NCBI GenBank assembly: GCA_035536535.1
Contig: DATLNZ010000058.1
Coordinates: forward strand, 1 to 32,768
From: Actinomycetota bacterium
GTDB lineage: Bacteria > Actinomycetota > JAICYB01
DNA length: 32,768 nt
Direction: 5' to 3'
Part shown: positions 3,380 to 22,435 of the stretch, piece after piece
How the letters are laid out: each line of letters begins with the position of its first letter
Numbering within the stretch: position 1 is the stretch's first letter
Notes under the pieces: model-generated
Database searches by the model: none
Told to the model about the DNA's origin: nothing
The model's input: only the letters and a program-made list of their open reading frames with translations
Program-made: the position numbers and the translations under genes

Positions 3380-3634
3380 TTGGTGACAAACGTAAAGGAA
3401 GTAAAGAAAGTTTGGATGCAGCCTCCCCACGGGCCAAGACCCATTTCCCCCAAAGGCCAGGTCAACCTGCCGGCAGAGGTGCTGAAAGCCTGTGGCCTGA
3501 CTGCCGGGGATCAGGTGTACCTATTGGCGCACGACGACCCTCCTGGCAGTGTTCTGATCGTGCCTATAGAGACGGCAGTCAGGTGGTTTGAGCAGGGGAA
3601 ACAAGCCTCCGGGACTTCTGAACCAAGGGCCTAG
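3380..3634 (+). CDS. SpoVT/AbrB-type DNA-binding protein (antitoxin-like)
   Basis: An 84-residue protein whose middle, PISPKGQVNLPAEVLKACGL then GDQVYLL, is the swapped-hairpin SpoVT/AbrB fold (MazE/VapB-type). Such proteins bind DNA as dimers, as transition-state regulators or toxin-antitoxin repressors. GTG 3380 is the first start; ATG at 3416, about 14 bases after AAGGAAG, is a possible alternative and would remove a Lys/Val-rich leader. No toxin follows directly: the next gene is Fic, 170 bases downstream, and the divergent DUF5678/retropepsin pair is 100 bases upstream, so it could regulate either. Confidence 0.78.
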   Translation: MVTNVKEVKKVWMQPPHGPRPISPKGQVNLPAEVLKACGLTAGDQVYLLAHDDPPGSVLIVPIETAVRWFEQGKQASGTSEPRA

Positions 3635-3725: not shown

Positions 3726-3754
3726 TTGCCACCGTTCCGTGTGGGTAATAGTAT
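3726..3754 (+). promoter_or_regulatory. Sigma-70-type promoter for the Fic gene
   Basis: TTGCCA (3726-3731), a 17-base spacer, and TAGTAT (3749-3754). The spacing is ideal and both boxes are close to consensus. A tandem GAATCATA repeat (about 3774-3789) lies between the predicted start site and the ribosome site, a possible operator. Confidence 0.6.
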
Positions 3755-3804
3755 TATTCCGTCCAGAGGGAAGGAATCATAGAATCATAACCGGAGACGA
3801 ACAC

Positions 3805-4962
3805 GTGATCTACCAGATGCCCTCAGTGCGTGCAGAGGAGCAGGCAGCACTCGCACGGATCAATAAGGTCCACCGGCAACTTCGGTCGTATGTGTCGCAG
3901 CCGCGGCGGTGGCTAGGACTGGTCCGCCGCGTGCTGTCGGCTCGAGCCATTCAGGGGTCCAACAGCATCGAGGGGTACAACGTGTCGGTTGAGGATGCCG
4001 TGGCTGCCATCGAAGGGGATCAGCCTTCTGAGGCAGAGCGGGAGGACTGGGAGGCAGTCCTGGGTTACAGGCGCGCGATGACTTACGTGCTCCAGATGGA
4101 GTCGGACCCCCACTTCCGCCTGACGCCGGAACTGCTACGAAGCCTCCACTACATGATGACGGAGTACTCCCTCCCGGCAGGCCCCGGTCTGTGGAGGAAC
4201 CAGCACGTCTGGGTGCGGAACTCAGCAACTGGAGACGTGGTGTACGAGGCCCCAAACGCCAGCCAGGTACCCCGGCTGATTGACGATCTGATCGCGCAGC
4301 TGACGGACCCTACTGAGATCCCCGCGATTATCCGGGGTGCGATGGCCCACCTGAACCTGGTGATGATTCACCCCTTCCGTGACGGCAATGGCCGCATGGC
4401 CAGGTGCCTGCAGACGCTGGTGCTCGCTCGGGAGGGTCTGCTGGCGCAGGAGTTCTCGAGCATCGAGGAGTACCTCGGAAGGAACACAGAGGAGTACTAC
4501 AGGGTGCTCGGAGAGGTAGGACAGGGCCGTTGGAACCCTCAGAACGATGCTCGACTCTGGATCCGCTTCTGCCTCAAGGCTCACTTCGTCCAAGCCTCGA
4601 GCGTCCTGCGGAGAGTCCAGGAGTGGGAGGCCACGTGGCGCCGCGTCGAGGATCTGGTGGACAGTCACCGACTTCCCGAACGCGCCTTCGTGCCACTCTT
4701 CGACGCGGCCATGGGCTTGCGCGTCCGCAACTCCGGATACAGAGCCAGTCTCAAGATGATGGAAGGTGAAGAAATCTCCAATCAGGTGGCCTCCAACGAC
4801 CTGAGAGCCATGGTGACTTCTGGCCTTCTTGAGCGGCGCGGAAAGAAGCGGGGCACCTATTACGTCTCTGGGCCTCCGCTCGTTCATGTCAGAAACGAGG
4901 TTCGAGCCGGTCGAGCGGGGACGATAGACACCTCCGACCTGTTCAAGACCGAGGCAGCCTAG
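3805..4962 (+). CDS. Fic family protein (protein AMPylator) with built-in inhibitory helix
   Basis: A 385-residue protein from GTG 3805. Fic enzymes transfer AMP (or another nucleotide part) to target-protein hydroxyls. The active-site motif HPFRDGNGR is at residues 189-197, with the catalytic His first. An N-terminal SNSIEG (residues 52-57) fits the inhibitory S/TxxxE(G/N) motif of class II Fic proteins, whose Glu blocks ATP. The C-terminal third looks like a winged helix (ISNQVASNDLRAMVTSGLLERRG). The longer GTG at 3739 is rejected because it lies inside the promoter; GTG 3805 has GGAGA 7 bases upstream. All key residues are present, so the enzyme should be active when relieved. Confidence 0.93.
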   Translation: MIYQMPSVRAEEQAALARINKVHRQLRSYVSQPRRWLGLVRRVLSARAIQGSNSIEGYNVSVEDAVAAIEGDQPSEAEREDWEAVLGYRRAMTYVLQMESDPHFRLTPELLRSLHYMMTEYSLPAGPGLWRNQHVWVRNSATGDVVYEAPNASQVPRLIDDLIAQLTDPTEIPAIIRGAMAHLNLVMIHPFRDGNGRMARCLQTLVLAREGLLAQEFSSIEEYLGRNTEEYYRVLGEVGQGRWNPQNDARLWIRFCLKAHFVQASSVLRRVQEWEATWRRVEDLVDSHRLPERAFVPLFDAAMGLRVRNSGYRASLKMMEGEEISNQVASNDLRAMVTSGLLERRGKKRGTYYVSGPPLVHVRNEVRAGRAGTIDTSDLFKTEAA

Positions 4963-5015: not shown

Positions 5016-5088
5016 GGCCGGGTAGCCGAGTGGCAAGGCAGTTGGATCCGCACTCCAACGTTCGTGGGTTCGAGTCCCACCCCGGCCT
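5016..5088 (+). tRNA. tRNA-Cys-like gene with an oversized anticodon arm
   Basis: 73 bases. Acceptor GGCCGGG/CCCGGCC pairs perfectly; the D-arm is GCCG-AGTGGCA-AGGC; A26; a 4-base variable loop; the T-arm is GTGGG-TTCGAGT-CCCAC; U73; no encoded CCA. The frame and U73 resemble bacterial tRNA-Cys. The anticodon arm (5041-5059) is 19 bases instead of 17. It folds as a 5-pair stem with a 9-base loop ATCCGCACT, or a 6-pair stem with 7-base loop TCCGCAC, which lacks the universal U33. GCA (Cys) and CGC (Ala) are both present but neither is in the normal register. It could be a decayed tRNA or a specialised one. Confidence 0.7.
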
Positions 5089-5153
5089 CACTCAGAAATC
5101 GGTAACGAATTGGGTCGTATTGACAAGTCGCGCGGTTCGGATGACAATTCCTC

Positions 5154-5169
5154 TGCGGATCCAACTGCC
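5154..5169 (+). promoter_or_regulatory. 16-base stretch antisense to the tRNA-like anticodon arm
   Basis: TGCGGATCCAACTGCC is the exact reverse complement of 5037-5052, which covers the 3' side of the D-stem, the 5' side of the anticodon stem and the loop up to GCA. It lies 66 bases after the tRNA-like gene and 33 bases before a strong terminator, so both would be on one transcript. Pairing would break the tRNA fold. A small hairpin CCGTGG/CCACGG (5168-5193) overlaps its end. Confidence 0.6.
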
Positions 5170-5201
5170 GTGGAGCCCATAGCGACCCCACGGAAGATGT
5201 C

Positions 5202-5230
5202 AAGAGGGGTGACTTTCAGTCACCCCTCTT
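5202..5230 (+). terminator. Strong terminator after the tRNA-like gene
   Basis: Perfect 13-base-pair stem (5202-5214 with 5218-5230), loop TTC, stem ending in CTCTT and followed by GCTTTG. It probably ends the tRNA-like transcript, giving about 215 bases in all. Confidence 0.82.
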
Positions 5231-5769
5231 GCTTTGACGGCACCCAGTTCGCCAGGGTCCTGTCACTTCCCCACCGGAGGCTCCTGTGCCCATGCCCTAC
5301 TCATCCGGACGCGGCCGGGATCCCCAGCGCGACCAGGAGGCCCTCTTCGTCTGCAGCTAGTGACGACCGGCCTGCCGCCGATGGGCGGATCATAGAGCTG
5401 GCAGCTCCAGGACCTTCGTGCGACTGGGGCGGGGAGTTCATGGGCTCGATCTAGGGTCACTTTCACCAACGCGGCCGAGGCCGGCTCGTGACCACGGATC
5501 CCCGCTTTCAGGACCCCCGCCGCTTCCCCTTGCGCGCTGAAGGTCCGCTCGGCCCCCTACGGCTGGGTGACGCTCCAGCTCCTGCGGATGCAGGTCGGAA
5601 ACATCGCCAGCTTCGAGTACGAGACGGAGCAGGTCTACCTGTGCCGGGCCCACAGAAAACCCCCAGACGAGAAGACACTTCCGGCGCCAGCACCTATCCC
5701 GGCGACCAGTCGTTTGTCCGTGGCCGAGAACACGGCAACCGCCAGCATGATCGCGGAGCTCGAGCTGAG
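5231..5769 (+). pseudogene. No clear gene; possible 3' remnant at 5492-5773
   Basis: From 5231 to 5491 nothing is supported. A plus-strand frame is open from 5492 to TAG 5773, with coding-like residues APYGWVTLQLLRMQVGNIAS and FEYETEQVYLCRAHRKPP, then a Pro/Ala/Ser-rich end. It has no good start, so it could be the 3' end of a lost secreted protein gene. It ends against the converging BsuPI-like gene. No family is recognised. Confidence 0.2.
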
Positions 5770-6620: not shown

Positions 6621-8909
6621 TCAGGATCCACTGTTCCGAGAAGTACTGACCTCCGGAAATCCGCACGATCGAAGCTCCGCCCCCACCGAGTAATTGACAG
6701 ACTCGCCGGCCAGGAACGGGAGGACGTCCGCCGAATCGAACCCGTGAGCCTGAAACGTACATTCGTCGGCGATCGGCCGTTTGGAGAATGTGTCGCCGGT
6801 CTGCTGAATCACGTACTTCTGGGTGCCGCTGACGACAAGACTGCCCTCGGCCCGGAATACTCCAGGGCCACGCGGGTATAGGCTCAACTCTGCCGCAGTC
6901 ACCTCGACGATGTTGTTCCAGTTGAACCCCCACGACTCGTATGCTTGCCCACTCATAATGGGCCGTGCTACTCCGCCGCTTATGAGGTAGACCATTGAAT
7001 CATCGCTGGTTTTGATCAGCTGGCCGTCGGGGCGCTGGCGTGAACTACACAGCGCGGCCGTGACCTGAAGCCCTTCAACATAGGCTGCTGATTCTATGTG
7101 CGGGTCTGACCTCACCCACGCATCCTTGAAGCCACAACTCGAATAGTCTGCAGGGCCGGGAATGTACCTGCGCACCCAGCTCGCGGTCGGCCATTCTCCG
7201 ACCTGATCCACGACGTAGATCTTGCCCGTCGATGGGCTCGAGATCAAAGAGCCCTCGCGATAGTGAATGACTTGACCCGCCGGAAGCGCATCATAGCCCG
7301 AGTTGTGAACCCTCTTGATTCGATCCCATCTCATCCCGGTGTTGGTGCCATCAATCCATCGGGAACTGTACGAATCAAGCACCTGCGGGCTAGCAATGGC
7401 GTTCTTCGTCCCGCCGTGCACCGCGAAGGCCGCACCCGCAGGGTCCGCGACCAGAAGCTGTCCATTGGTACTCTGCTTAGCGCAAGGGCCGAGGGTCCCA
7501 GATCCGATGACTGGATGCGGCCCGTCAGGAATATTGATCGCATAGACAGTAACTGTGTGGGGCCGGTAGTCGCTCCACAAGATGGGAACCTGCCAGACGT
7601 ACCCGTGGTCGCCAGGAACGCCTTCCGGTCCATTGACGTCGTTAATGTCGGGCCTCGCGATGCGAGCAGGACCAATATCATAGCCAACTCCGTCCACGTA
7701 GATGTGGACGGAAATTGAGTGAATCGGTTGGTCTGGATCGTATGTCCATCCCGCAATTGTGTTGCAATTCATTGAGTCTACAGAGCCGCGCGGGCTGTGG
7801 TTGGTATATAAGGCACGGACTCCGGCGACGTCACCATTCAATAGTGAACGCCGGAGTTGCCCAGCTGAGAGGCAGCCTTGCGTCATAACTGAGGCACTGC
7901 ACGACGTGGGTGGGTGGTGTAGCCCCAGCGCGTGCCCAGCTTCATGCAGCATGACCGATTCAAGATCAATCCTACCCTGCTGTCCGGTGGTGCTCCACGA
8001 GTATCCATCGTTGATCCATATATCGAACCCGCTAAAATGGCCCCCGCTACCGTGGGACTGGGCACAAGCGTAGTAATTGGTACTTACGCCGCACGTGGAC
8101 GAGGCAGCGAACCATACGGTGTTGAGCCCGTCGTTGAACGAGGTTTGCCCCGCAGCCGTTCCCCGGTAGTCGAAGTCCATGTATGACGCGGGATCGTTTT
8201 CCCAAGTCTGGAAAGCCGCCTGGATAGCTGACCTCACAGAATCGCCGGACAGCCCGTCGTTGTTGCCGTGGTCGATGTAGTAAGTAGCGGGCAGCGATGT
8301 GACCTGCCACTTCAGCCCCGTGAAGCAATAGTCGGTCGAGGGGCAGCCGGGCGAAACCGTGTCATAGCTCTCAGCGAGCTCCACTCCGTCCCCGGATCCT
8401 CCCGTGCCTTCGCCAGAGACCGAGGAGGGGTCGTCCTGCTTGCCCTCATCCAGTCCCCGGACGTAGAAGTCTTCGCGACCGATCCGTTCGAGAAAAAGGC
8501 GTGAGCGCTGGCCGCTCCTAAAAATGGGTGAGTGCTCCGTATGAGTCATCCGAACCTCCCCATTTTCATCTGGGGCAGTACCTTGATCTGTGTGAATGTT
8601 GATCGTCCCAGAAATCCCGCCGCGAATACTTTCCTCGACTACGAATCGAGTGACAGAGGTGACCTTGCCCTCCTGTCCAGACCATTCGGAACTGGTAGAG
8701 CCAGCCACCCCGGTGACAACGAAAGGCGCAGCAGCGATGTCAATGATCGGGCCGCGCGGTGGGTCAGGGTAGCGGGAGGGGGGAAGGTTCTGGACGCTGT
8801 GATCCGCCGGTTGCTGGAGCAGCGTCGCTGGCTGCGCCGAGACCGGCGGATGAGGGACTAACGTGGCAGTGATAAGTAGCAGCCCGACCGACAGCAGCGC
8901 CGTTTTCAC
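6621..8909 (-). CDS. Secreted matrixin-type zinc metalloprotease with C-terminal repeats
   Basis: 762 residues. GTG start with GGGGG about 6 bases upstream. A signal peptide (residues 1-25) is followed by a beta-rich propeptide-like part to about residue 190. The catalytic domain holds HEAGHALGLHH at 322-332 (zinc His322, His326, His332; catalytic Glu323), then the Met-turn VMTQG (Met342) and ALYT at the domain end. After residue 370 come a Gly/Trp-rich part (GWTYDPDQPIHSISVHIYVD) and several repeats of the type DGQLI...GGVARPI...ESWGFNW, likely beta-propeller or cell-wall/substrate-binding units. It is probably an active exported protease. It begins a two-gene unit with the BsuPI-like gene. 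Confidence 0.9.
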   Translation of the reverse strand: MKTALLSVGLLLITATLVPHPPVSAQPATLLQQPADHSVQNLPPSRYPDPPRGPIIDIAAAPFVVTGVAGSTSSEWSGQEGKVTSVTRFVVEESIRGGISGTINIHTDQGTAPDENGEVRMTHTEHSPIFRSGQRSRLFLERIGREDFYVRGLDEGKQDDPSSVSGEGTGGSGDGVELAESYDTVSPGCPSTDYCFTGLKWQVTSLPATYYIDHGNNDGLSGDSVRSAIQAAFQTWENDPASYMDFDYRGTAAGQTSFNDGLNTVWFAASSTCGVSTNYYACAQSHGSGGHFSGFDIWINDGYSWSTTGQQGRIDLESVMLHEAGHALGLHHPPTSCSASVMTQGCLSAGQLRRSLLNGDVAGVRALYTNHSPRGSVDSMNCNTIAGWTYDPDQPIHSISVHIYVDGVGYDIGPARIARPDINDVNGPEGVPGDHGYVWQVPILWSDYRPHTVTVYAINIPDGPHPVIGSGTLGPCAKQSTNGQLLVADPAGAAFAVHGGTKNAIASPQVLDSYSSRWIDGTNTGMRWDRIKRVHNSGYDALPAGQVIHYREGSLISSPSTGKIYVVDQVGEWPTASWVRRYIPGPADYSSCGFKDAWVRSDPHIESAAYVEGLQVTAALCSSRQRPDGQLIKTSDDSMVYLISGGVARPIMSGQAYESWGFNWNNIVEVTAAELSLYPRGPGVFRAEGSLVVSGTQKYVIQQTGDTFSKRPIADECTFQAHGFDSADVLPFLAGESVNYSVGAELRSCGFPEVSTSRNSGS

Positions 8910-10068: not shown

Positions 10069-12192
10069 CTAGGGCCTTGACAGGTGGCTGATGTCAAGGC
10101 CCACTATGGGGCCTGCGTCTCCGGAGCCGAAATACTTGACGGGGCTGAAGTCGATCACGGGCGTCACCCGAAGAAGGTTCACGGTCTCGAAGGCGAGTTC
10201 AACCAGAGGCGGCCACGTCCGGTCGCCTTCCCACGCAACAAGGGCGTCGGCCGTCGCAGGCACAGCGCCGATTCCGCCCGTCTCCGAACGGTAGACATAG
10301 GTGAGCCGGTGGACATCCGCGTACATGTTGGGCCACAAGGCTCGAGGTCGGTCGCTGATGAAGCCGGCGATCGTCTCCCCGATCGAGTCGGTCGTCATCG
10401 ACTCTTCGGTAACTACGGCGCCGAAGACCTGGAACTGGAACTCCTGCGGGTCCACCGGGTTCCCATACGGCAGGGTGTAGTTCTCGCCGCCTGCCGAGCG
10501 ATCTAGCCTCTTGACCGACTCGAGGTTCTCAAGGGCCTGATGCAGGGTCGCGCGATCCCGGATGCTCGCCTTGACCTCGAATACAGCCGCTACGGACTCA
10601 GCGAGGAAGTGGTTCACGCCGCCAATGACTATGACGGGGTGATATGAGCGTCGATACACGACCACGTCCACTTGTCTACTGATCGACCCGGAGTGATCGA
10701 TCACAAAGCCGGTCGATATGGCGAAGTCATCCGGGATCAGGCGTCGCAGGAACGCAGTCAGGACTTGCTCACGCGCGCGACCACTTTCTCCGGGGTGTGC
10801 GATTGCTTTGGTGAGGGCTAGTTCGTTCAGAACCTCACGGTTCATCGCCTCGACGACCTGCGGGACGATTCCAGGCACCGAGTTGTCTCCACCTAGGCTC
10901 TTGGGTCGTGCGCGGCGAACCCGCGCCTCGCCTGAGCTACGGTAGCGCTCGCGGCCGACGTCGGCGCCGCAAGCGCAGGAACGGGTTAGGGGCCGCAGCC
11001 CCCCGGCTGCTAATCCACGCTGAGCCGCTGGGCAGGCGGTTGCCTCTAGCGCTCCAGGCGGCCGGATGTCTTCAGCATCGATCCAGACCGCCCCCTCTGG
11101 CACGGAACCCACTTCGAAAATGGCAACCAGGATCCAAGGCTCAACAGGTGTCGACTCCGCGCACAAGCCGCGATACGCATCCTCGAACTTGGCGATTGAA
11201 GCTTCCATCTGCGCCGGCAACGTTGGAGGTGCTGCCCTACAAACGCGCCACGTCACTTGGTCATGTATCCACCAATCGGACCCCCCCTGCGCGAACAATC
11301 GCTTGACCAGGGTCAATCGGGCCGGAGGCGCCTCCGGCCAGGCCTCCTCATCGAGCGCCAGCACGGCCTGACGATATTCCGGCCAAAGGTCACGGAGCCT
11401 GCGAAGCTCATCCTCGATCGCGTGCGTAGCGAGCAACGTAGTCGGCGTTCGGATCGTAGCCAGCAGCTGAAGAAAGGCATCGATACCCCAAAGCAGCGCG
11501 GATGGGCACAACGACAGCGCTGGTCCTGTACGGCGCACGCTCTGACCCTCTATCTGCCGGGCGAGGCCGATGATCCCCCCGCTTGTCCCATGGATGACGC
11601 TGGACGCGATCCGATAGAACTCGTATTCCTCTGACAGCCCATGCTTCGCCGCCAGGTTGCGTAGGTTGTCGCCCGCCCAACGCGACCGGAAGCCCGAACC
11701 CCACCTCGCCAGCGCGTCCTCCGCCTGAGCGGCGACGGTACGCTCCAGCTCCTCGAGACGGTCACGCTCGATGGCAGCCGTTGTCGGCGGTAGCGCGTCG
11801 AGTTCTCGGCAGAGACGCGACAAAGCGTGGCTAGTCATTGCCTGATGTTGTTCGTACCGCGAAGCGCTTTCGACAGAAGAGACCACCTCTCGCGCATTGA
11901 TGGCGTGCTCGATCAAGGCACGGGTGGAACGTAGAGCCGGCCTCCCTCTGCCCTGGCGACACTCCACGAAGAGGTCGACTAGATCATTTACGGCCTGCTG
12001 GACGATTCGCCCGACGGCCTGAGGACCCCCGTCGAATCCGTATTGGAGCGACATGAGCGACGGGAGCTGCTGACAAGTCGACCGCAGCAGGTCGTCGTAA
12101 CGCGGGACACGTGCACGTATCTCGGCGGAAAAGTAGTCCGCTGCATCGAGTAGCGTCAGGTCACGATCACTGCGTCCGCTGTCTGATTCCAT
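10069..12192 (-). CDS. DUF5677 - DUF6602 protein, predicted PD-(D/E)xK nuclease-like
   Basis: 707 residues from ATG 12192 (GGGAG 5 bases upstream; GTG 12204 less likely). Residues 1-245 look like DUF5677, an all-helical domain (RALIEHAINAREV, YRIASSVIHGTSGG). From about residue 445 the chain matches DUF6602: a helix REQVLTAFLRRLIP, TGFVID, then SRQVDVVVY (Asp509) and AAVFEVKAS (Glu539, Lys541), the D...ExK layout of the restriction-endonuclease fold. The linker at about 385-435 is Arg/Gly-rich and looks out of frame, so two once-separate genes may be fused, or a pair of indels may be present. It has no signal peptide. A defence role is possible but unproven. Confidence 0.72.
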   Translation of the reverse strand: MESDSGRSDRDLTLLDAADYFSAEIRARVPRYDDLLRSTCQQLPSLMSLQYGFDGGPQAVGRIVQQAVNDLVDLFVECRQGRGRPALRSTRALIEHAINAREVVSSVESASRYEQHQAMTSHALSRLCRELDALPPTTAAIERDRLEELERTVAAQAEDALARWGSGFRSRWAGDNLRNLAAKHGLSEEYEFYRIASSVIHGTSGGIIGLARQIEGQSVRRTGPALSLCPSALLWGIDAFLQLLATIRTPTTLLATHAIEDELRRLRDLWPEYRQAVLALDEEAWPEAPPARLTLVKRLFAQGGSDWWIHDQVTWRVCRAAPPTLPAQMEASIAKFEDAYRGLCAESTPVEPWILVAIFEVGSVPEGAVWIDAEDIRPPGALEATACPAAQRGLAAGGLRPLTRSCACGADVGRERYRSSGEARVRRARPKSLGGDNSVPGIVPQVVEAMNREVLNELALTKAIAHPGESGRAREQVLTAFLRRLIPDDFAISTGFVIDHSGSISRQVDVVVYRRSYHPVIVIGGVNHFLAESVAAVFEVKASIRDRATLHQALENLESVKRLDRSAGGENYTLPYGNPVDPQEFQFQVFGAVVTEESMTTDSIGETIAGFISDRPRALWPNMYADVHRLTYVYRSETGGIGAVPATADALVAWEGDRTWPPLVELAFETVNLLRVTPVIDFSPVKYFGSGDAGPIVGLDISHLSRP
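10072..10102 (-). terminator. Hairpin at the 3' end of the DUF5677/DUF6602 gene
   Basis: GGGCCTTGACA (10072-10082) and TGTCAAGGCCC (10092-10102) pair over 11 bases with a 9-base loop. It lies within the last ten codons and the stop codon follows at once. There is no T-run, so it may act in termination or RNA stability. Confidence 0.45.
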
Positions 12193-12795
12193 CCGGACTC
12201 CCACAAGGTCTGGCTAGCACGTGGGAGCTGAGCTGCCGCGGCGACATGCTCACGGTCGGCCTGCACAGCGTCACCCGGCCTGCCTAAAGAAGAGCTGGCT
12301 TGAGCAGCCGGATCTCCGAATCCACCGACAAGCCCGCAGGGCTGGTGGCCAACGCAATCCGCACCTCTTGGGCCTTACCCGGAGAGTCGGTCCGAGCTGG
12401 CCCGGCACCCTGCCTCATACCTTAGTTTCCCCGCCCGATGTGACACGCCCCCGCAGCCAGTCGGCGGCTACCGCCCGTAGAACTTCTCTGATTGGAGGGA
12501 CCCGCGTAACCACCGGCCCGTGAACCTAACCCGAGGCCTACTACTAAGCACGCGCACCGAGGATCGTCCGGAGCGCGCCGCGCACACCGGCTGCGGTGGT
12601 CGTATGGATCGCTCTCTTGCGGGCAGCCATCTCGGTGTCCGACGTGTTGCTGGCCCCAGGCGTCGAAGTGACCGTCTCTGGCTCCCCCAGGCTGGGAGGA
12701 TCAAGTTCTTCCGTGCCTGGACCAAGGCCGGCCCGCCTTCAGATGGCGTTTGGGCGCTGGAGGAACCTCGGCCCTGGTGGCGAACCCCTTCACCC
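12193..12795. other. Intergenic region, no supported gene
   Basis: The region lies between two divergent genes. Open frames here (for example the plus-strand extension of the propeller gene from 12520) are Arg/Gly-rich and lack family features. It presumably holds both promoters; no convincing boxes were seen. Confidence 0.5.
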
Positions 12796-14415: not shown

Positions 14416-14949
14416 TTAGGGGAGGGTCGTTCCGTCGACCACCCTCGCCCCCGGCACCGCGCGTTCGAGTTGAACCTGGGTCCGAACCAGCTCCTGTTCC
14501 CAGCAACGAACGCGAACGGATGGGCGGTCGCCTTGGGTTATGACGACAATCACCAAGTCGCCGCGAACCTCGGTGGTTACACTGGCCAGCCGTTCCTGTC
14601 CGCAGTCCCCCTTGCCCTGCGTGAGCCATACCTCAACTGTGCGTCCGTCGGTCGACAGATACGCCTCCAAGTACGACGTCTTCTGCACCCGAACCAGCCC
14701 GCGCTCTGGCTTCACCAGCCGCGGGAGTCCTGGATGACCCTCTTGCCTTGTCTGTCTGGCCTCCGTGAATACGGGCTCTTCCGACCGCAAAAACCGCTGA
14801 CTACCCAGCCAAGCACCAGAGGCCAGAGCCGCTATGGCAGCGATCGCCACAATCCCACGCGTCTTCCGCAGCACCTGGCGGTGACGACGGCGGCTCGCAC
14901 CGTGGACCGCCTCCAGCGATCCAGTGGATCCCTCATGCGCCCGGTTCAA
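14416..14949 (-). CDS. Anchored small protein paired with the streptogrisin-like protease
   Basis: 177 residues, TTG start overlapping the protease stop (TTGA), so translationally coupled. One membrane helix (about 30-50: RGIVAIAAIAALASGAWLG), then an outside domain of about 110 residues: RTVEVWLTQGKGDC, VVITQGDRPSVRVRC and RAVPGARVVDGTT. This matches, motif by motif, the protein at 31717-32187 (VLFLGGFPGC, LTLFSGRSVTWSSESC, SQPVADYEFKDGS), which sits after a second protease of the same family. Two conserved Cys probably form a disulfide. No named family. An inhibitor, folding helper or anchor for the protease is inferred from the conserved pairing. Confidence 0.6.
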   Translation of the reverse strand: MNRAHEGSTGSLEAVHGASRRRHRQVLRKTRGIVAIAAIAALASGAWLGSQRFLRSEEPVFTEARQTRQEGHPGLPRLVKPERGLVRVQKTSYLEAYLSTDGRTVEVWLTQGKGDCGQERLASVTTEVRGDLVIVVITQGDRPSVRVRCWEQELVRTQVQLERAVPGARVVDGTTLP

Positions 14950-16262
14950 ATCAGGGTGACGTAATCCAGTGTTAGCTCCATCAGTTCTTGCACCGTCTGG
15001 ATATGAGTAAAGCAGGAGTAGCCGATCTTTTCATACTTGCCAGCCATGATTCCTTCTGCCCAAATCTCGTCCTCTACGGCGTTTGTGACGTCATACACGG
15101 GACCGCCGCTATCACCTTCTATTGAGACGGAGTCATTGCACCACGCATTCTCGAGGTAGCCGCCGCCTGTGAGCTTGATGTCGCCGCCGACGACTTTGAT
15201 CTGGCCACAGTTTGGTCCGGGATTCTTCCACCCTGACCAGCACGAGTCCGTGTTCCGGTCCAGATCGTCATAGGTGAACTGTCCGACGACTATTCTCAGC
15301 GTCTTTGGGCCCGTAACTACTTTCGGCTCGCCCTGTCCCAGGGGCCCGCTCGAGCCGGCTAGGGCAAATCTGCCCACGTCCCCCTTCACGACTCGATCCG
15401 CTGTCTCCTGAAACACCCAGCGATTCCGCCCCATCCACCCAACCTCGGTGGTCCCAATCGAGATCATCGTCTCGGGTCCAGAGCGGCCGCAATGACCGGC
15501 GGTGACACCCCAGTAACCCTTGTTAAACGAGTAGCCCGAAGTGCAGTTGCCGATCAGCGTGTCGTTCGCCGGGATGTTGTCCGCATCCAGATTCCTCCGA
15601 ACAGACGCTTGAAGGCCGCCGTAATACGGTGGGTATTTAGTCCTGCTGTAAGTGATTGGCAACTGGCCGGTTGGGTCCTGCGCCATTTGCATCCCTCCAG
15701 CCAGCCCAGGTTCCTGCCTATACGTGACCTGAGCCTGGTCCACTCCGGACGACCCCACGGCAGAAACCATCTCCGGCCTAAGTGTGTCAACACTCACCAC
15801 GACTCGATTGGTCTGAGAGTCTGGGGCGATGATGAAGTAAGCATCTGGGAATGAACTGTTGATGACGGACGTCACCGCCGCACGAGTAGCTCGGAGTTGG
15901 GCCCGTGAGTAAGTCACGCGAAAAGGCGCTGCGCGGGGGTCGCTAGACACTTCAGACCTAAACCTTGCCTCATCCGCGAGGTTCAGATCGACGATCCCGA
16001 CCCGATAGACTCCTGGGACTGTCGCGCGGTCAATCCAGTACCCCCCGAACCGAGACTCCCCAAAGGTCGCTTTCACGCGCCGCACTAGCTCAGCCGATGG
16101 CATGAACAGATGCATCTGGTCCTGGGGTTCTTGATAGGAGAGGTCCTCCGACGTGTCGATGGTCTCCTGAGCCGTAGCGCTCGTGCTTGCCCCACCCACG
16201 CAGACAGCTGATACGAGAAGTAGCCAAACGACTAGCGCAGCAAATCGTCGCTTCGAGATCAT
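14946..16262 (-). CDS. Secreted streptogrisin/alpha-lytic-type serine protease
   Basis: 438 residues from ATG 16262, which has GGGGGG just upstream; the longer frame to 16406 is rejected because the signal peptide begins here (RRFAALVVWLLLVSAVCVGG). A propeptide of about 200 residues follows, then an S1-family (chymotrypsin-fold) domain. The catalytic residues are all present: His257 in VTAGHCG, Asp295 in KGDVGRFAL and Ser385 in EGDSGGPVY. Cys in NCTSGYSF and AGHC form the usual disulfide. It should be an active extracellular endopeptidase, matured by autoprocessing. It starts a two-gene unit with the anchored partner. Confidence 0.92.
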   Translation of the reverse strand: MISKRRFAALVVWLLLVSAVCVGGASTSATAQETIDTSEDLSYQEPQDQMHLFMPSAELVRRVKATFGESRFGGYWIDRATVPGVYRVGIVDLNLADEARFRSEVSSDPRAAPFRVTYSRAQLRATRAAVTSVINSSFPDAYFIIAPDSQTNRVVVSVDTLRPEMVSAVGSSGVDQAQVTYRQEPGLAGGMQMAQDPTGQLPITYSRTKYPPYYGGLQASVRRNLDADNIPANDTLIGNCTSGYSFNKGYWGVTAGHCGRSGPETMISIGTTEVGWMGRNRWVFQETADRVVKGDVGRFALAGSSGPLGQGEPKVVTGPKTLRIVVGQFTYDDLDRNTDSCWSGWKNPGPNCGQIKVVGGDIKLTGGGYLENAWCNDSVSIEGDSGGPVYDVTNAVEDEIWAEGIMAGKYEKIGYSCFTHIQTVQELMELTLDYVTLI

Positions 16263-16651
16263 GTGCCCCCCGCGTCTTGACGCCCCAGTGCTTGAGGTCA
16301 TGGTAGTTGGCGCCGTCAACCTGAAAGAGGGAGGGGAGGAAGACGGCACCGAACCGTCGTCCGTCGACGTCGCGCGTGATGCAGAGAGGACGACCTCGTC
16401 TTGCAAGGGGACGACGGCCAGCTACGCCCCTGCTCATCGCCAGGGAGGGCTGTGGGAGCACCGGGAGCGCCGGGTATAGATCCGCCCACGCCCATACGCG
16501 TGACGGTCACCGGTCCGTCCTCACCGAGCGGGGGAAGTCCGGGCAACTCCTTCGGCAACCTCACGGCGCTGTGGGTGGGACTTCGGTCGACACGGGAGTA
16601 ACGGAGCGTCGTGACCCTCGAGCCTCAGGCTCTAGCCCAACCCGAGCGACG
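16263..16651. other. No supported gene
   Basis: GC-rich spacer between the protease and GNAT genes. A plus-strand frame with GAPGAPGIDPP (16401-16601) has a collagen-like look but no start context or family. The protease promoter should lie here. Confidence 0.5.
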
Positions 16652-17353: not shown

Positions 17354-17376
17354 TGGTCAGCCGAATTCGATGGGTC

Positions 17377-18448: not shown

Positions 18449-19486
18449 ATGTCCAAGCGGAGGCAGGCGCGGATCGCGGCTCTCGCTGCGCTGATCGTGA
18501 TGGGCGCGACAGTCGCGCCGTCCGCGTCCGCCTACGCACCCAACGATCCCAGGTGGCAGTACCAGAACAGCCTCAGGGTGGCGGGAGTTCCCGAGGCCTG
18601 GAACCGCTCGACCGGGTCCGGGATCGTTCTGGCGATGATCGCGCTGGCGGGGGTAGACCGTCAGCACGAGGACCTACGCAACCAGCTCGTGCCCGGATAT
18701 GACTTCCTGAATCCGGGGGCGGAGCCCCCCCCCGGCGGACACGACACGGCCGCCGCCGGAGTGGCCGTCGCCGAGCGCAACAACGGAGTCGGCATCGCTG
18801 GTGTGGCCCCAGGAGCAAGACTCATGCCGATCAGGATTGGGCCCGGCTGGCACGACTCCCTCCGGTTGGCAGTGGATCGCGGAGCCAAGGTCATCTTCTA
18901 TGAGGTGGAGGACATCCTCTGGCCCGACGACTTCGTCGGCCTTACTTCGCACCCCATCCCATACGAAAAGGCGATGGAAGAGGCACTTACCTACGCCTGG
19001 TCGCGGGGTGCGGTCGTCATCGGGGCTGCCGGAAACGAAGGGCGCCCCTACTGTTCCAACCCCTCTGCTTATGATCGGGTTCTTTGTGTCGGTGCCACCG
19101 ACGATGAGTTCCCAGACCAGCGGGCCCTCCGATCCAACTGGGGGTTTGGGCTGGACCTGGCCGCACATTCGCGGCACCAGGCCACCGACTGGAATTCCGG
19201 CGAACCCGACAACCACAGTGCCTATGGCCCGTTCAACGGGACCTCCGGCGCAGCAGCGTTCGCTGCCGGCGTTGCAGCCCTTTTGATGGGTGCTGGAGCT
19301 TCCAACGAAGAGGTGGTCCGGGTGCTTCAGTGCACAGCCGACGATCTGGGCCCCGAGGGTCCCGACCTCATCTACGGACACGGCCGTATCCACGCGGGTC
19401 GCGCGATGGCAGCCCTCGGCTCGGGCATTACGTGCCCCTCGCCACCAGCGACTGTTCTCGATCTCGTGAGGGGGAACCGGCCCTAG
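18449..19486 (+). CDS. Secreted subtilase-fold protein lacking catalytic Asp and His
   Basis: 345 residues. The signal peptide (to about residue 28) is followed by an S8-like domain without a long propeptide. Conserved landmarks are clear: GIVLAMIALAGVD for the first strand, GHDTAAAGVAVAERNNGVGI and GVAPGARLMPIR, AAGNEG (oxyanion Asn196) and NGTSGAAAFAAGVAALL (Ser266). The active-site DTG is replaced by ALAG (65-68), and the catalytic His of GxGTHVAG is Ala101. With Asp and His gone, normal proteolysis is very unlikely; Ser and Asn remain. The frame is intact and composition normal, which argues for a pseudoenzyme under selection, not decay. It is coupled to the upstream small secreted protein. 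Confidence 0.85.
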   Translation: MSKRRQARIAALAALIVMGATVAPSASAYAPNDPRWQYQNSLRVAGVPEAWNRSTGSGIVLAMIALAGVDRQHEDLRNQLVPGYDFLNPGAEPPPGGHDTAAAGVAVAERNNGVGIAGVAPGARLMPIRIGPGWHDSLRLAVDRGAKVIFYEVEDILWPDDFVGLTSHPIPYEKAMEEALTYAWSRGAVVIGAAGNEGRPYCSNPSAYDRVLCVGATDDEFPDQRALRSNWGFGLDLAAHSRHQATDWNSGEPDNHSAYGPFNGTSGAAAFAAGVAALLMGAGASNEEVVRVLQCTADDLGPEGPDLIYGHGRIHAGRAMAALGSGITCPSPPATVLDLVRGNRP

Positions 19487-19987: not shown

Positions 19988-20908
19988 TCAGCAGATACGC
20001 GGCGGGTGGGATCGGCGGGTAAGTTGGCCAGCCCGGACGGACCAACTCTGATCCCACGCGTCCGTGAACAGCAGAACGGCCATGCTCGTAAGCTCCGCGA
20101 ACACCGGTTCCGCCGACAGCGGAAACGTGCCATTTTCGTCTTCGATTGTCTCCCCAGCACTCATCGTGCCGATCACGAGCTCGAAGCCAGTCCCCTGCCG
20201 ATCTTCTGCCTGGCCTTCCTGCCCCGGGTCGTCAATCAATAGGGACCACGTTGTGGATCGGGAACTCTGACCCGTTGTGGATTCGGTACTTCACCAACCA
20301 CAAGCCATCCGGCTGCTCGACCAGATCTGCTCGAGCCGAGGCTCTCCTTGCCATCTCCTCCCGCTTCGCAAGCTCGGCTGGTGGTGTCGGCAGTGGCCGC
20401 CCGTAATCGGCAAGATGCTGGACAGTTGCTACCGCCACCTCTTCAGGCCCCAGCACCCTCCCATCCAGATAGGCGGTGGTGGGATTGAGCTCGGGGACAT
20501 CTGAGTCGTCGAGCCTGACCGGCAGCACGTGGGGCGTAGCTGGATCCTCGACGATCTTGGCCATAGCGGAGCGTCGCTCGTGAGTCGGAAAAGCCTTCCG
20601 AACATAGTCGGATGAATGAAGATCAGCGTTCTGAAGGCCCGCCGCCCGTAGAGCTCGGCGAGTTGCTCCGCCAGGTCCGTGCCCCACATCCTCGGACGCT
20701 CATCCTGGTCATAGAACACGCTGACCCCGTGTCTTTGAAGGGCGCGAACGACTGCCTCAACGTAGTACCGGTCTTCTCCCGCGAAGGACACAGCCACGTC
20801 GTAGTCGTCGTGGGCCGCTTTCTGATTCAGACCTACCCCCCCGCTGGTTGGCTGAGGTGCAAACAGTCGATTGCCGACGTGACTTCGCCTCGACTCTTCC
20901 ACAAGCAC
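19988..20908 (-). pseudogene. TIR-domain protein gene with two frameshifts
   Basis: Three frames join into one protein of about 305 residues. The first holds the TIR domain start, YDVAVSFAGEDRYYVEAVVR and WGTDLAEQLAELYGRRA. Near 20612-20620 the frame shifts (ATTCA where ATTTCA is expected) into SSDYVRKAFPTHERRSAMAK, which holds the likely catalytic Glu, then HVLPVRLDDSDVPEL. Near 20235-20245 it returns to the first frame with LLIDDPGQEGQAEDRQGTGF and a beta-rich end (MSAGETIEDENGTFPLSAEP, FTDAWDQSW). TIR domains of this type cleave NAD in defence; the C-terminal domain may sense or bind. Inactive as read, unless the shifts are sequence errors. Confidence 0.75.
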
Positions 20909-21008
20909 GGCAGCGAGAGTGCCCTAGCCCGTGCGACCCTGCCTCTGCCCTTGCGGTGTGCCCGACTGCTGCTCTCGCGCGCTCGGCTCTCGCGTCGGTG
21001 CTCCCTCC

Positions 21009-21722
21009 TCACCCAGGCCGCAGCTGTTCGTCAAGCACCGCAGCTGCCCGGATCACCTGCTCCGCATCGGCACGAGCTCCAGCCGCAGTGACGGCCTTCC
21101 GCAGCCCACGCCGACCGACAAACCGCACGTGCCCCACCCGCGTCCTCCGCAGCAGATGCGCCCGGTGGAAACACAGGACCGGCGTGACTGGCACCGCCCC
21201 AAGCCCTGCGCGGAACAGAACCTCCTCCACCGCGCGCGACTGGCCGAGCACCTGGTCCACGATGCCGGTGCGGCGACGGCCGTTGACGAAAACCTCTCTC
21301 CGGCGCACGCGAACCTTGCCGCTGTAGGACTTGGTCTCCACCACGAACACCCCGCACGGACCGATGACCAGGTGGTCGATGTTGGACCGGCGGCCGGACA
21401 TCTTGCGGTCGTGCAGGACGGCGTAGCCGAGGCCAAGGCCTTCCAGAGCGCGAGCGGTGCGCCTTTCACCGGAGGCGCCGATACTCCAGGACTCGGTGGA
21501 GCGGACCTGGACTGTCGCGTCGCTCAGGAGCGTGAGGAACGCGAGGCCCGCGGCCCACTTGCCGACGCCGGGGAGGAAGGCATCTACGAGCGTCCACGCG
21601 AGCAGCGGGGCGAACACGAGGAGTACGAGCGTGAACGGCAGCCGCCTTCTACGCCGCTCCTTCAGGTTCGTCCGGCGGCGGTCGTACTCGCGTTGCGCTG
21701 ATGCGCCTGGACGGCCAGCCAT
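21009..21722 (-). CDS. Membrane-anchored NERD-domain (nuclease-related) protein
   Basis: 237 residues from ATG 21722, two bases after the stop of the upstream gene. A basic N-terminus (RRRTNLKERRRRR) is followed by two membrane helices (about 29-48 and 55-68). The NERD domain then runs to about residue 190: GASGERRTARAL, YAVLHDRKMSGRRSNIDHLV (Asp116) and GVFVVETKSYSG (Glu129, Lys131), the D...ExK arrangement of restriction-type nucleases. A helical tail follows. NERD proteins are thought to process nucleic acid; the in-cell target is unknown. The longer frame to 21848 overlaps the upstream gene and is rejected. Confidence 0.85.
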   Translation of the reverse strand: MAGRPGASAQREYDRRRTNLKERRRRRLPFTLVLLVFAPLLAWTLVDAFLPGVGKWAAGLAFLTLLSDATVQVRSTESWSIGASGERRTARALEGLGLGYAVLHDRKMSGRRSNIDHLVIGPCGVFVVETKSYSGKVRVRRREVFVNGRRRTGIVDQVLGQSRAVEEVLFRAGLGAVPVTPVLCFHRAHLLRRTRVGHVRFVGRRGLRKAVTAAGARADAEQVIRAAAVLDEQLRPG

Positions 21723-21724
21723 GA

Positions 21725-22435
21725 CTAGAACCAAGCGACGCGAACGGGGACCTGCTCGCTCGACGAGCTTCGAGGGCTGAAGTAGTTCGCCAGCCACAGT
21801 TCGGTGCGCGTATCGAGCTGTCCAGCCACTACCGCCCCACTGTGGCATTCGTAGGTCTGAGTCAATCCGCCTCTAGGAAGCCGAGTGCCACCGGGGCGCA
21901 CCGTGCACCGGTCCCCGTTCAGGAGAGTGATGGACCAAACGGACCCAGGGTCGCTAAACGCGTCCGCATACCCGTCATGCCTGTCGGACCCAGGCGGCTC
22001 AGAGGGGGCTTCTCTAACACTCAGAAGCACGCCGCCATCCCGGTTTGGCCACTCAGGACAGAGTGCAAGGTAGCTGCCACCGCCGAAGTACCGAAAACAG
22101 GGGTCGCCAATGGGGGTGCGGTCCCCGGAGCATCGGTAGGCGTCACTCCGCCTGGTTGTCACGGATTCAGACCGGCAGACTCCGGTGTCGCGCTCGGCGG
22201 GCTGAACCGATAGCTTGCCATCAGCGCCTCTTGGGTCGAAGAATCGCAACTGCGTGCGGTCAATTGTCACAAGCGTCGGTCGAGTGAGTCGCGGAGTCAC
22301 GATCCGCTCCCAACCCACCTCCACCACTTTTACGGTCAAGGCTCCAACGAGCGCCGCAACCATCAGCCAGTACAACCTTGCCTTGGGTCTCTCGCCTGCT
22401 GGTCCGCCGCCGCCAACTGGCCTTGGCTCGGTCAT
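21725..22435 (-). CDS. Single-pass membrane protein with Cys-rich outer domain
   Basis: 236 residues from ATG 22435, with GGAGG close upstream; the frame is open further but the extension is Arg-rich noise. One membrane helix (about residues 21-37: YWLMVAALVGALTVKVV) is followed by an outside domain with six Cys: GVCRSESVTTRRSDAYRCSG, DPCFRYF, ALCPEW, DRCTVRPGG and YECHSG. Similar 'Cys-DAWRC...DPCF...CP' proteins occur widely in actinobacteria without a known function. It ends two bases before the NERD gene start, so the pair is probably co-translated. No catalytic motif was seen. Confidence 0.62.
   Translation of the reverse strand: MTEPRPVGGGGPAGERPKARLYWLMVAALVGALTVKVVEVGWERIVTPRLTRPTLVTIDRTQLRFFDPRGADGKLSVQPAERDTGVCRSESVTTRRSDAYRCSGDRTPIGDPCFRYFGGGSYLALCPEWPNRDGGVLLSVREAPSEPPGSDRHDGYADAFSDPGSVWSITLLNGDRCTVRPGGTRLPRGGLTQTYECHSGAVVAGQLDTRTELWLANYFSPRSSSSEQVPVRVAWF

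Follow-up and report, generated by a model that had tools for sequence, protein, structure and literature searches.

The window analysed here, a stretch of 32,768 nucleotides from an Actinomycetota bacterium, carries a tRNA-Cys-like gene with an abnormal anticodon arm, followed on the same strand by a promoter-like site and by a sequence complementary to that arm. Upstream of the tRNA-like gene lie a small AbrB/MazE-like ORF (3380-3634, +) and a gene for a Fic-domain protein (3739-4962, +; Fic E 5e-16), which possibly form a toxin-antitoxin-like pair; within the phylum the nearest relative of the Fic protein shares 68% identity, and no tRNA adjoins it. Elsewhere the window contains clustered genes for secreted proteases (6621-8909, 14946-16406 and 18449-19486), namely a matrixin recognized by a Pfam match and trypsin-like and subtilisin-like proteins assigned by eye. 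A large ORF (10069-12204, -) joins DUF5677 in its N-terminal half to DUF6602 in its C-terminal half, either an unusual combination or a fused frame, and dispersed repeats of 35-70 nt (CGTCTTCCATGGGGTCGGGATTTTCGGGGGTCTTCCATGGGGTC), 73-97% alike, occur at 17368, 17655, 23168 and 27362. The features on which the analysis centres are the following.

1530-1574, - strand: displaced 3' part of the host tRNA-Arg(ACG), an attachment-site scar, identical at 45/45 positions to the tRNA-Arg of contig C93
5016-5089 (5016-5088/9), + strand: tRNA-Cys-like pseudo-tRNA, called by Rfam RF00005, ARAGORN and similarity to a relative's tRNA-Cys
5037-5052, + strand: predicted binding site for the small RNA (sRNA), GGCAGTTGGATCCGCA, the exact complement of 5154-5169
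5041-5059, + strand: replaced 19-nt anticodon arm GTTGGATCCGCACTCCAAC, a proposed target mimic judged by fold, pairing and absence from 397 phylum genomes
5046-5054: anticodon loop ATCCGCACT, complementary to the sRNA 5' end
5120-5148, + strand: sigma-70-type promoter-like site TTGACA-17-GACAAT, from a consensus scan
5155-5235, + strand: predicted sRNA of ~80 nt, its start and end estimated from promoter spacing, fold and pairing probabilities
5155-5171, + strand: guide GCGGATCCAACTGCCGT, predicted to pair with the pseudo-tRNA arm and the sdhC start codon region
5168-5195, + strand: internal hairpin of the sRNA, CCGTGG ... CCACGG, from its fold
5201-5231, + strand: perfect 14-bp hairpin, terminator-like, with only a short T run

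The Rfam tRNA model RF00005 scores the tRNA-like RNA at 55.8 bits (gathering score 29); the RNA retains U73, an intact T loop and intact acceptor, D and T arms, but no usable anticodon. ARAGORN labels the gene Ala(CGC) because its anticodon arm is odd. Compared with the tRNA-Cys(GCA) of the nearest relative, a distant one, the body is identical at 48/54 positions (89%) and the anticodon arm aligns at 10/19 only; on this similarity the body is that of a tRNA-Cys, and the differences are concentrated in the arm. The closest tRNAs among the 397 phylum genomes are likewise ordinary tRNA-Cys(GCA) genes, and 11/11 relatives possess an ordinary arm of 17 nt whose loop carries GCA. The arm of the pseudo-tRNA folds either as 5 bp with a 9-nt loop or as 6 bp with the 7-nt loop UCCGCAC, which places C at position 33, so that 5016-5089 lacks the combination of a 7-nt loop, U33 and GCA at positions 34-36 that defines a functional tRNA-Cys. 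The tRNA set of the host is complete and ordinary, including Ala(CGC) and Cys(GCA), and since an ordinary tRNA-Cys(GCA) is already present, 5016-5089 is an extra gene.

The inverted copy pairs 5037-5052, from the D/anticodon region, exactly with 5154-5169 over 16 nt, and when it is widened to 5034-5052 and 5154-5172, 18/19 positions pair. As a control, 178 distinct tRNAs were examined for reverse complements of their D-to-anticodon regions lying no more than 300 nt away; the longest measured 16 nt at the pseudo-tRNA versus 5-11 nt in all others. With a chance expectation of ~3e-5, the 16-nt complement is far beyond chance. These data uphold a first-pass annotation of the sequence, which had described a tRNA-Cys-like RNA with a 19-base anticodon arm and otherwise normal arms, had found this arm two bases too long, with a 9-base loop or a 7-base loop without U33, and had judged its 16-base exact reverse complement very unlikely to have arisen by chance.

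A scan of 281,052 positions of the genome gave no site scoring 10/12 or more other than the promoter-like site at 5120-5148, between the tRNA and the copy, which is a consensus match only; its -10 box GACAAT does not conform to TAnnnT, missing the T that -10 boxes of this genome typically have. The predicted start, G5155, is located six bases past the -10 box and is the first base of the complement's 15-nt core (the 16th base being 5154), a coincidence of promoter start and complement start with a chance of ~2e-5. In the predicted RNA 5155-5235, bases 1-10 are mostly unpaired according to the fold and the pairing probabilities, and 15 bases of the guide pair with the pseudo-tRNA arm, or 16 counting 5154. 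The terminator-like hairpin has only TTT nearby and was not called by the consensus scan. Base-pairing small RNAs are typically built in this way, from a free 5' guide, a hairpin and a terminator hairpin. The search against Rfam sRNA families gave no match, with only RF00005 hit at the tRNA and all others far below threshold.

Because the promoter-like site separates the tRNA from the copy, the complement is likelier to reside on a separate transcript, most likely as the free 5' end of an sRNA of ~80 nt, and a trans antisense RNA likely replaces a cis stem within one long RNA as the picture of this locus. The first-pass annotation had placed arm and copy on the same transcript, a claim against which the strong promoter-like site between them argues, and had counted 13 pairs in the terminator, whose stem comprises 14 bp. 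Its suggestion of a regulated tRNA-like RNA survives in that a non-decoding arm meant to pair downstream fits the data; masking and processing in a long transcript are not favoured, since the promoter-like site would start transcription at the complement and the partner is likelier a trans sRNA with a match to sdhC.

This match emerged from a search of the whole genome (2.6 Mb) with the 15-base target at up to 2 mismatches, which returned two self sites, one single-mismatch site and eight two-mismatch sites. The single-mismatch site, the only other one in the genome with at most 1 mismatch, is contig C6 3202-3216, AAGGAGGCTTGTAG-ATG-GCA-GTT-GGA-TCT-GCC, the start of sdhC; it spans the AUG to codon 6 and is preceded by AAGGAGG. 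None of the looser genome matches examined is located at a start codon. The mismatch, C to U opposite G, yields a G.U pair, and pairing runs on over the AUG, giving 17 consecutive pairs between guide and sdhC (15 Watson-Crick and 2 G.U); across the 15-base core the binding sites in the arm and in sdhC differ at a single base. Calculated duplex energies are -33.4 kcal/mol for the tRNA arm, and -32.4 for sdhC; in 139 kb the best of the other, unrelated sites reaches -28.3. SdhC was identified by TIGR02970 above its cut-off and by Pfam Sdh_cyt, and its gene heads an sdhCDAB-like operon, in which the three following ORFs, assigned by reading and not by profile, correspond to the membrane anchor, flavoprotein and iron-sulphur subunits. 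Neither of the two class genomes yielded an sdhC relative at E <= 0.001. A composition model puts the probability of finding such a site at any translation start between ~0.1% (one G.U) and 0.7% (any one mismatch), and as this is not negligible for a match found after the fact, we regard the sdhC match as good but not conclusive sequence evidence.

The pair appears to be located on an integrated island. In addition to the tRNA-Arg scar at 1530-1574, contig C93 (L132 3364-5029) carries an intact tRNA-Arg(ACG) with a tyrosine integrase gene within ~80 bp of the tRNA 3' end, followed by genes for an HTH protein and an AAA_25 ATPase. Integrative elements typically show this layout, a tRNA scar together with an integrase beside the intact tRNA. 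We infer that the window above 1574 is the element side and that the two contigs join; they probably represent opposite ends of a single element, at least 40 kb long. The GC content of the window is 0.64, compared with ~0.68 in other loci. That the contig has 45 bp exactly in common with the tRNA-Arg of the host speaks against mis-binning, though bin contamination amounts to 2.6%. Defence-like island cargo comprises TIR-domain and NERD nuclease-related genes in the window (20429-21848, -) and, near the integrase end on contig C93, a gene for a CAP12/Pycsar-effector-type TIR protein (L132 8232-8807, -). The tRNA/sRNA pair most likely sits on this island, ~3.4 kb from its end, a location that would explain its absence from two other class genomes.

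No homologue of the block was found in the 397 phylum genomes, in the two class relatives or in pattern scans of viral and species genomes. The pattern used for the 397 genomes demanded GNCGAG and would pass over D arms with GCCAAG instead; these are covered by BLAST, which over the phylum genomes retrieved ordinary tRNA-Cys genes only. The sRNA module alone was likewise absent from the 397 phylum genomes. In the species genomes paired arms were not found, and a looser tRNA pattern returned one ordinary tRNA-Asp. Phages and plasmids gave short matches only, mostly to the T-arm region; viral contigs with a 28-nt spacing like that of the arm proved to be seven ordinary tRNAs, and viral exact matches to the 16-mer lie in unrelated sequence without a partner. 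As no homologue turned up in the searched collections, conservation and covariation give function no support. Two further candidates were rejected: an integron attC site, for which GTTGGAT/ATCCAAC fit the core letters in a GTT..AAC order that is the wrong way round on both strands, and a conserved linkage to the Fic gene, as 13 Fic relatives have no such tRNA alongside.

On the basis of these results, we tentatively propose, as the best explanation, that a small RNA represses sdhC and that the tRNA-like RNA is its target-mimic decoy. The DNA itself shows the arm and its complement, a promoter-like site and where it falls, the match in sdhC and the setting on an integrated island; from these features we infer that both RNAs are transcribed, that sdhC is repressed and that the sRNA is sequestered. 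According to this model, 5155-5235 would encode a trans-acting sRNA whose unpaired 5' end pairs with the translation start of the sdhC mRNA and blocks translation, resulting in repression of succinate dehydrogenase. The tRNA-Cys-like RNA would no longer decode, its arm offering instead a perfect version of the sdhC target: the first bases of the sRNA, GCGGAU, would anneal to AUCCGC in the exposed anticodon loop before invading the stem, and sRNA captured by this pseudo-tRNA sponge would be kept from sdhC. The arm is perfect where sdhC needs G.U pairing, as would be expected of a decoy. The weakest point of the decoy side is the missing promoter-like site before the pseudo-tRNA: none was detected at the usual place, whereas many host tRNAs carry TAnnnT ~10 nt upstream, and its transcription may rely on read-through out of the Fic gene, which ends at 4962.

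A somewhat unlikely alternative is a closed antisense pair, in which the main target of the sRNA would be the pseudo-tRNA itself (for example an island-borne RNA and its antisense inhibitor) and the sdhC match would be coincidental. Antisense RNA pairs are common on integrated elements, both genes are adjacent on one, and the tRNA arm pairs exactly across 16 nt, versus two G.U at the sdhC site. Yet the latter falls exactly on the start codon, as the sole such site in the genome, and the pseudo-tRNA displays no apparent activity that needs silencing.

We also consider it unlikely that the arrangement is a neutral relic, produced when a template switch in replication or a local inverted copy duplicated 16 nt, with the tRNA a decaying island pseudogene. 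This explanation would agree with the lack of conservation in the collections searched and with a tRNA that has no obvious promoter. The copy moreover includes GGCA, conserved in every tRNA-Cys examined and expected if it was copied from a tRNA, but this clue cuts both ways, as the sdhC start also opens with AUGGCA. The perfect 5-6 bp arm stem and the intact body are unlike scattered decay, and copying explains neither a promoter placed to start at the copy nor the match to sdhC.

A single transcript of ~215 nt, in which the downstream copy masks the arm until processing frees it, seems improbable. The 217-nt RNA does fold with a 16-bp stem and is stabler than shuffled sequences (z -3.9), but the promoter-like site between the arms makes a separate short RNA likelier, and no promoter is evident before the tRNA. 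That the gene is a working tRNA, regulated by the complement and reading a 4- or 5-base codon or CGC through its unusual loop, is hardly credible. In its favour, U precedes and A follows CCGC in the 9-nt loop, and body and T loop are intact, but the 6-bp/7-nt form has C at position 33 and the host set already includes Ala(CGC) and Cys(GCA).

Returning to the preferred reading of an sRNA and its decoy, it is also possible, although we would not count on it, that a mature tRNA fold has been remodelled into a decoy dedicated to an sRNA, the arm being a better-than-native copy of the sdhC start-codon target; located beside the sRNA gene on an integrative element, it would constitute a self-contained mobile module tuning host succinate dehydrogenase. 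If so, a site for binding a regulator would have taken the place of an anticodon arm, surplus tRNA genes carried by mobile elements could turn into RNA decoys, and a mobile element would be tied directly to the control of central metabolism. This suggests a generic screen for tRNAs with displaced anticodons in which the reverse complement of the arm recurs near a promoter.

The sdh operon is a target of known trans-acting sRNAs. RyhB (PMC6497325), which represses an sdhC-lacZ fusion (PMC6497325), and NrrF (PMC5586341) both repress sdhCDAB. The candidate described here would resemble them in targeting the sdh operon through small-RNA base-pairing, with a promoter of its own (a consensus match only) and a seed predicted to be accessible for an mRNA translation start; it would differ in being carried on an integrated island, in a poorly sampled class, and it matches no Rfam sRNA family. 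The nearest functional parallel is 3'ETS-leuZ. According to passages of PMC6191717 and PMC8383071, RyhB in E. coli represses sdhCDAB and is itself controlled by this sponge derived from a tRNA transcript, which acts on RyhB and RybB (Lalaouna et al. 2015, as cited in both). In these accounts, as predicted here, RNA from a tRNA transcript pairs with an sRNA targeting sdhCDAB and buffers it; the predicted pairing of tRNA-gene sequence with the sRNA seed is exact over 16 nt at our locus. The site in 3'ETS-leuZ, as portrayed there, is a trailer removed from the transcript of a working tRNA, whereas here it would lie inside a non-decoding anticodon arm and the sRNA complement starts ~65 bp downstream.

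As far as the passages of Rogers et al. 2012 (PMC3399842) describe it, the Bacillus cereus pseudo-tRNA tRNA-Other is the nearest structural parallel: it is tRNA-like, linked to an island, thought to be non-translational and proposed to be part of a regulatory RNA. Our pseudo-tRNA likewise combines a tRNA-like fold, an abnormal anticodon loop and a normal isoacceptor in the host with association with a genomic island, the last by way of the presumed contig join. In those passages tRNA-Other differs in keeping a Trp anticodon and in being embedded in a ~1-kb RNA, and they describe no adjacent complementary sRNA. A decoy for an sRNA carried by a mobile element is exemplified in passages of PMC8383071 by AgvB, a bacteriophage-encoded sponge of GcvB; as presented there, AgvB acts on a host sRNA, whereas at our locus one element carries the predicted sRNA and its proposed decoy side by side. 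Our literature search, covering open-licence papers only, found no described case of such an sRNA/decoy arrangement. Our locus is set apart from the known systems by a predicted binding site located within an anticodon arm, together with the adjacency of sRNA and decoy.
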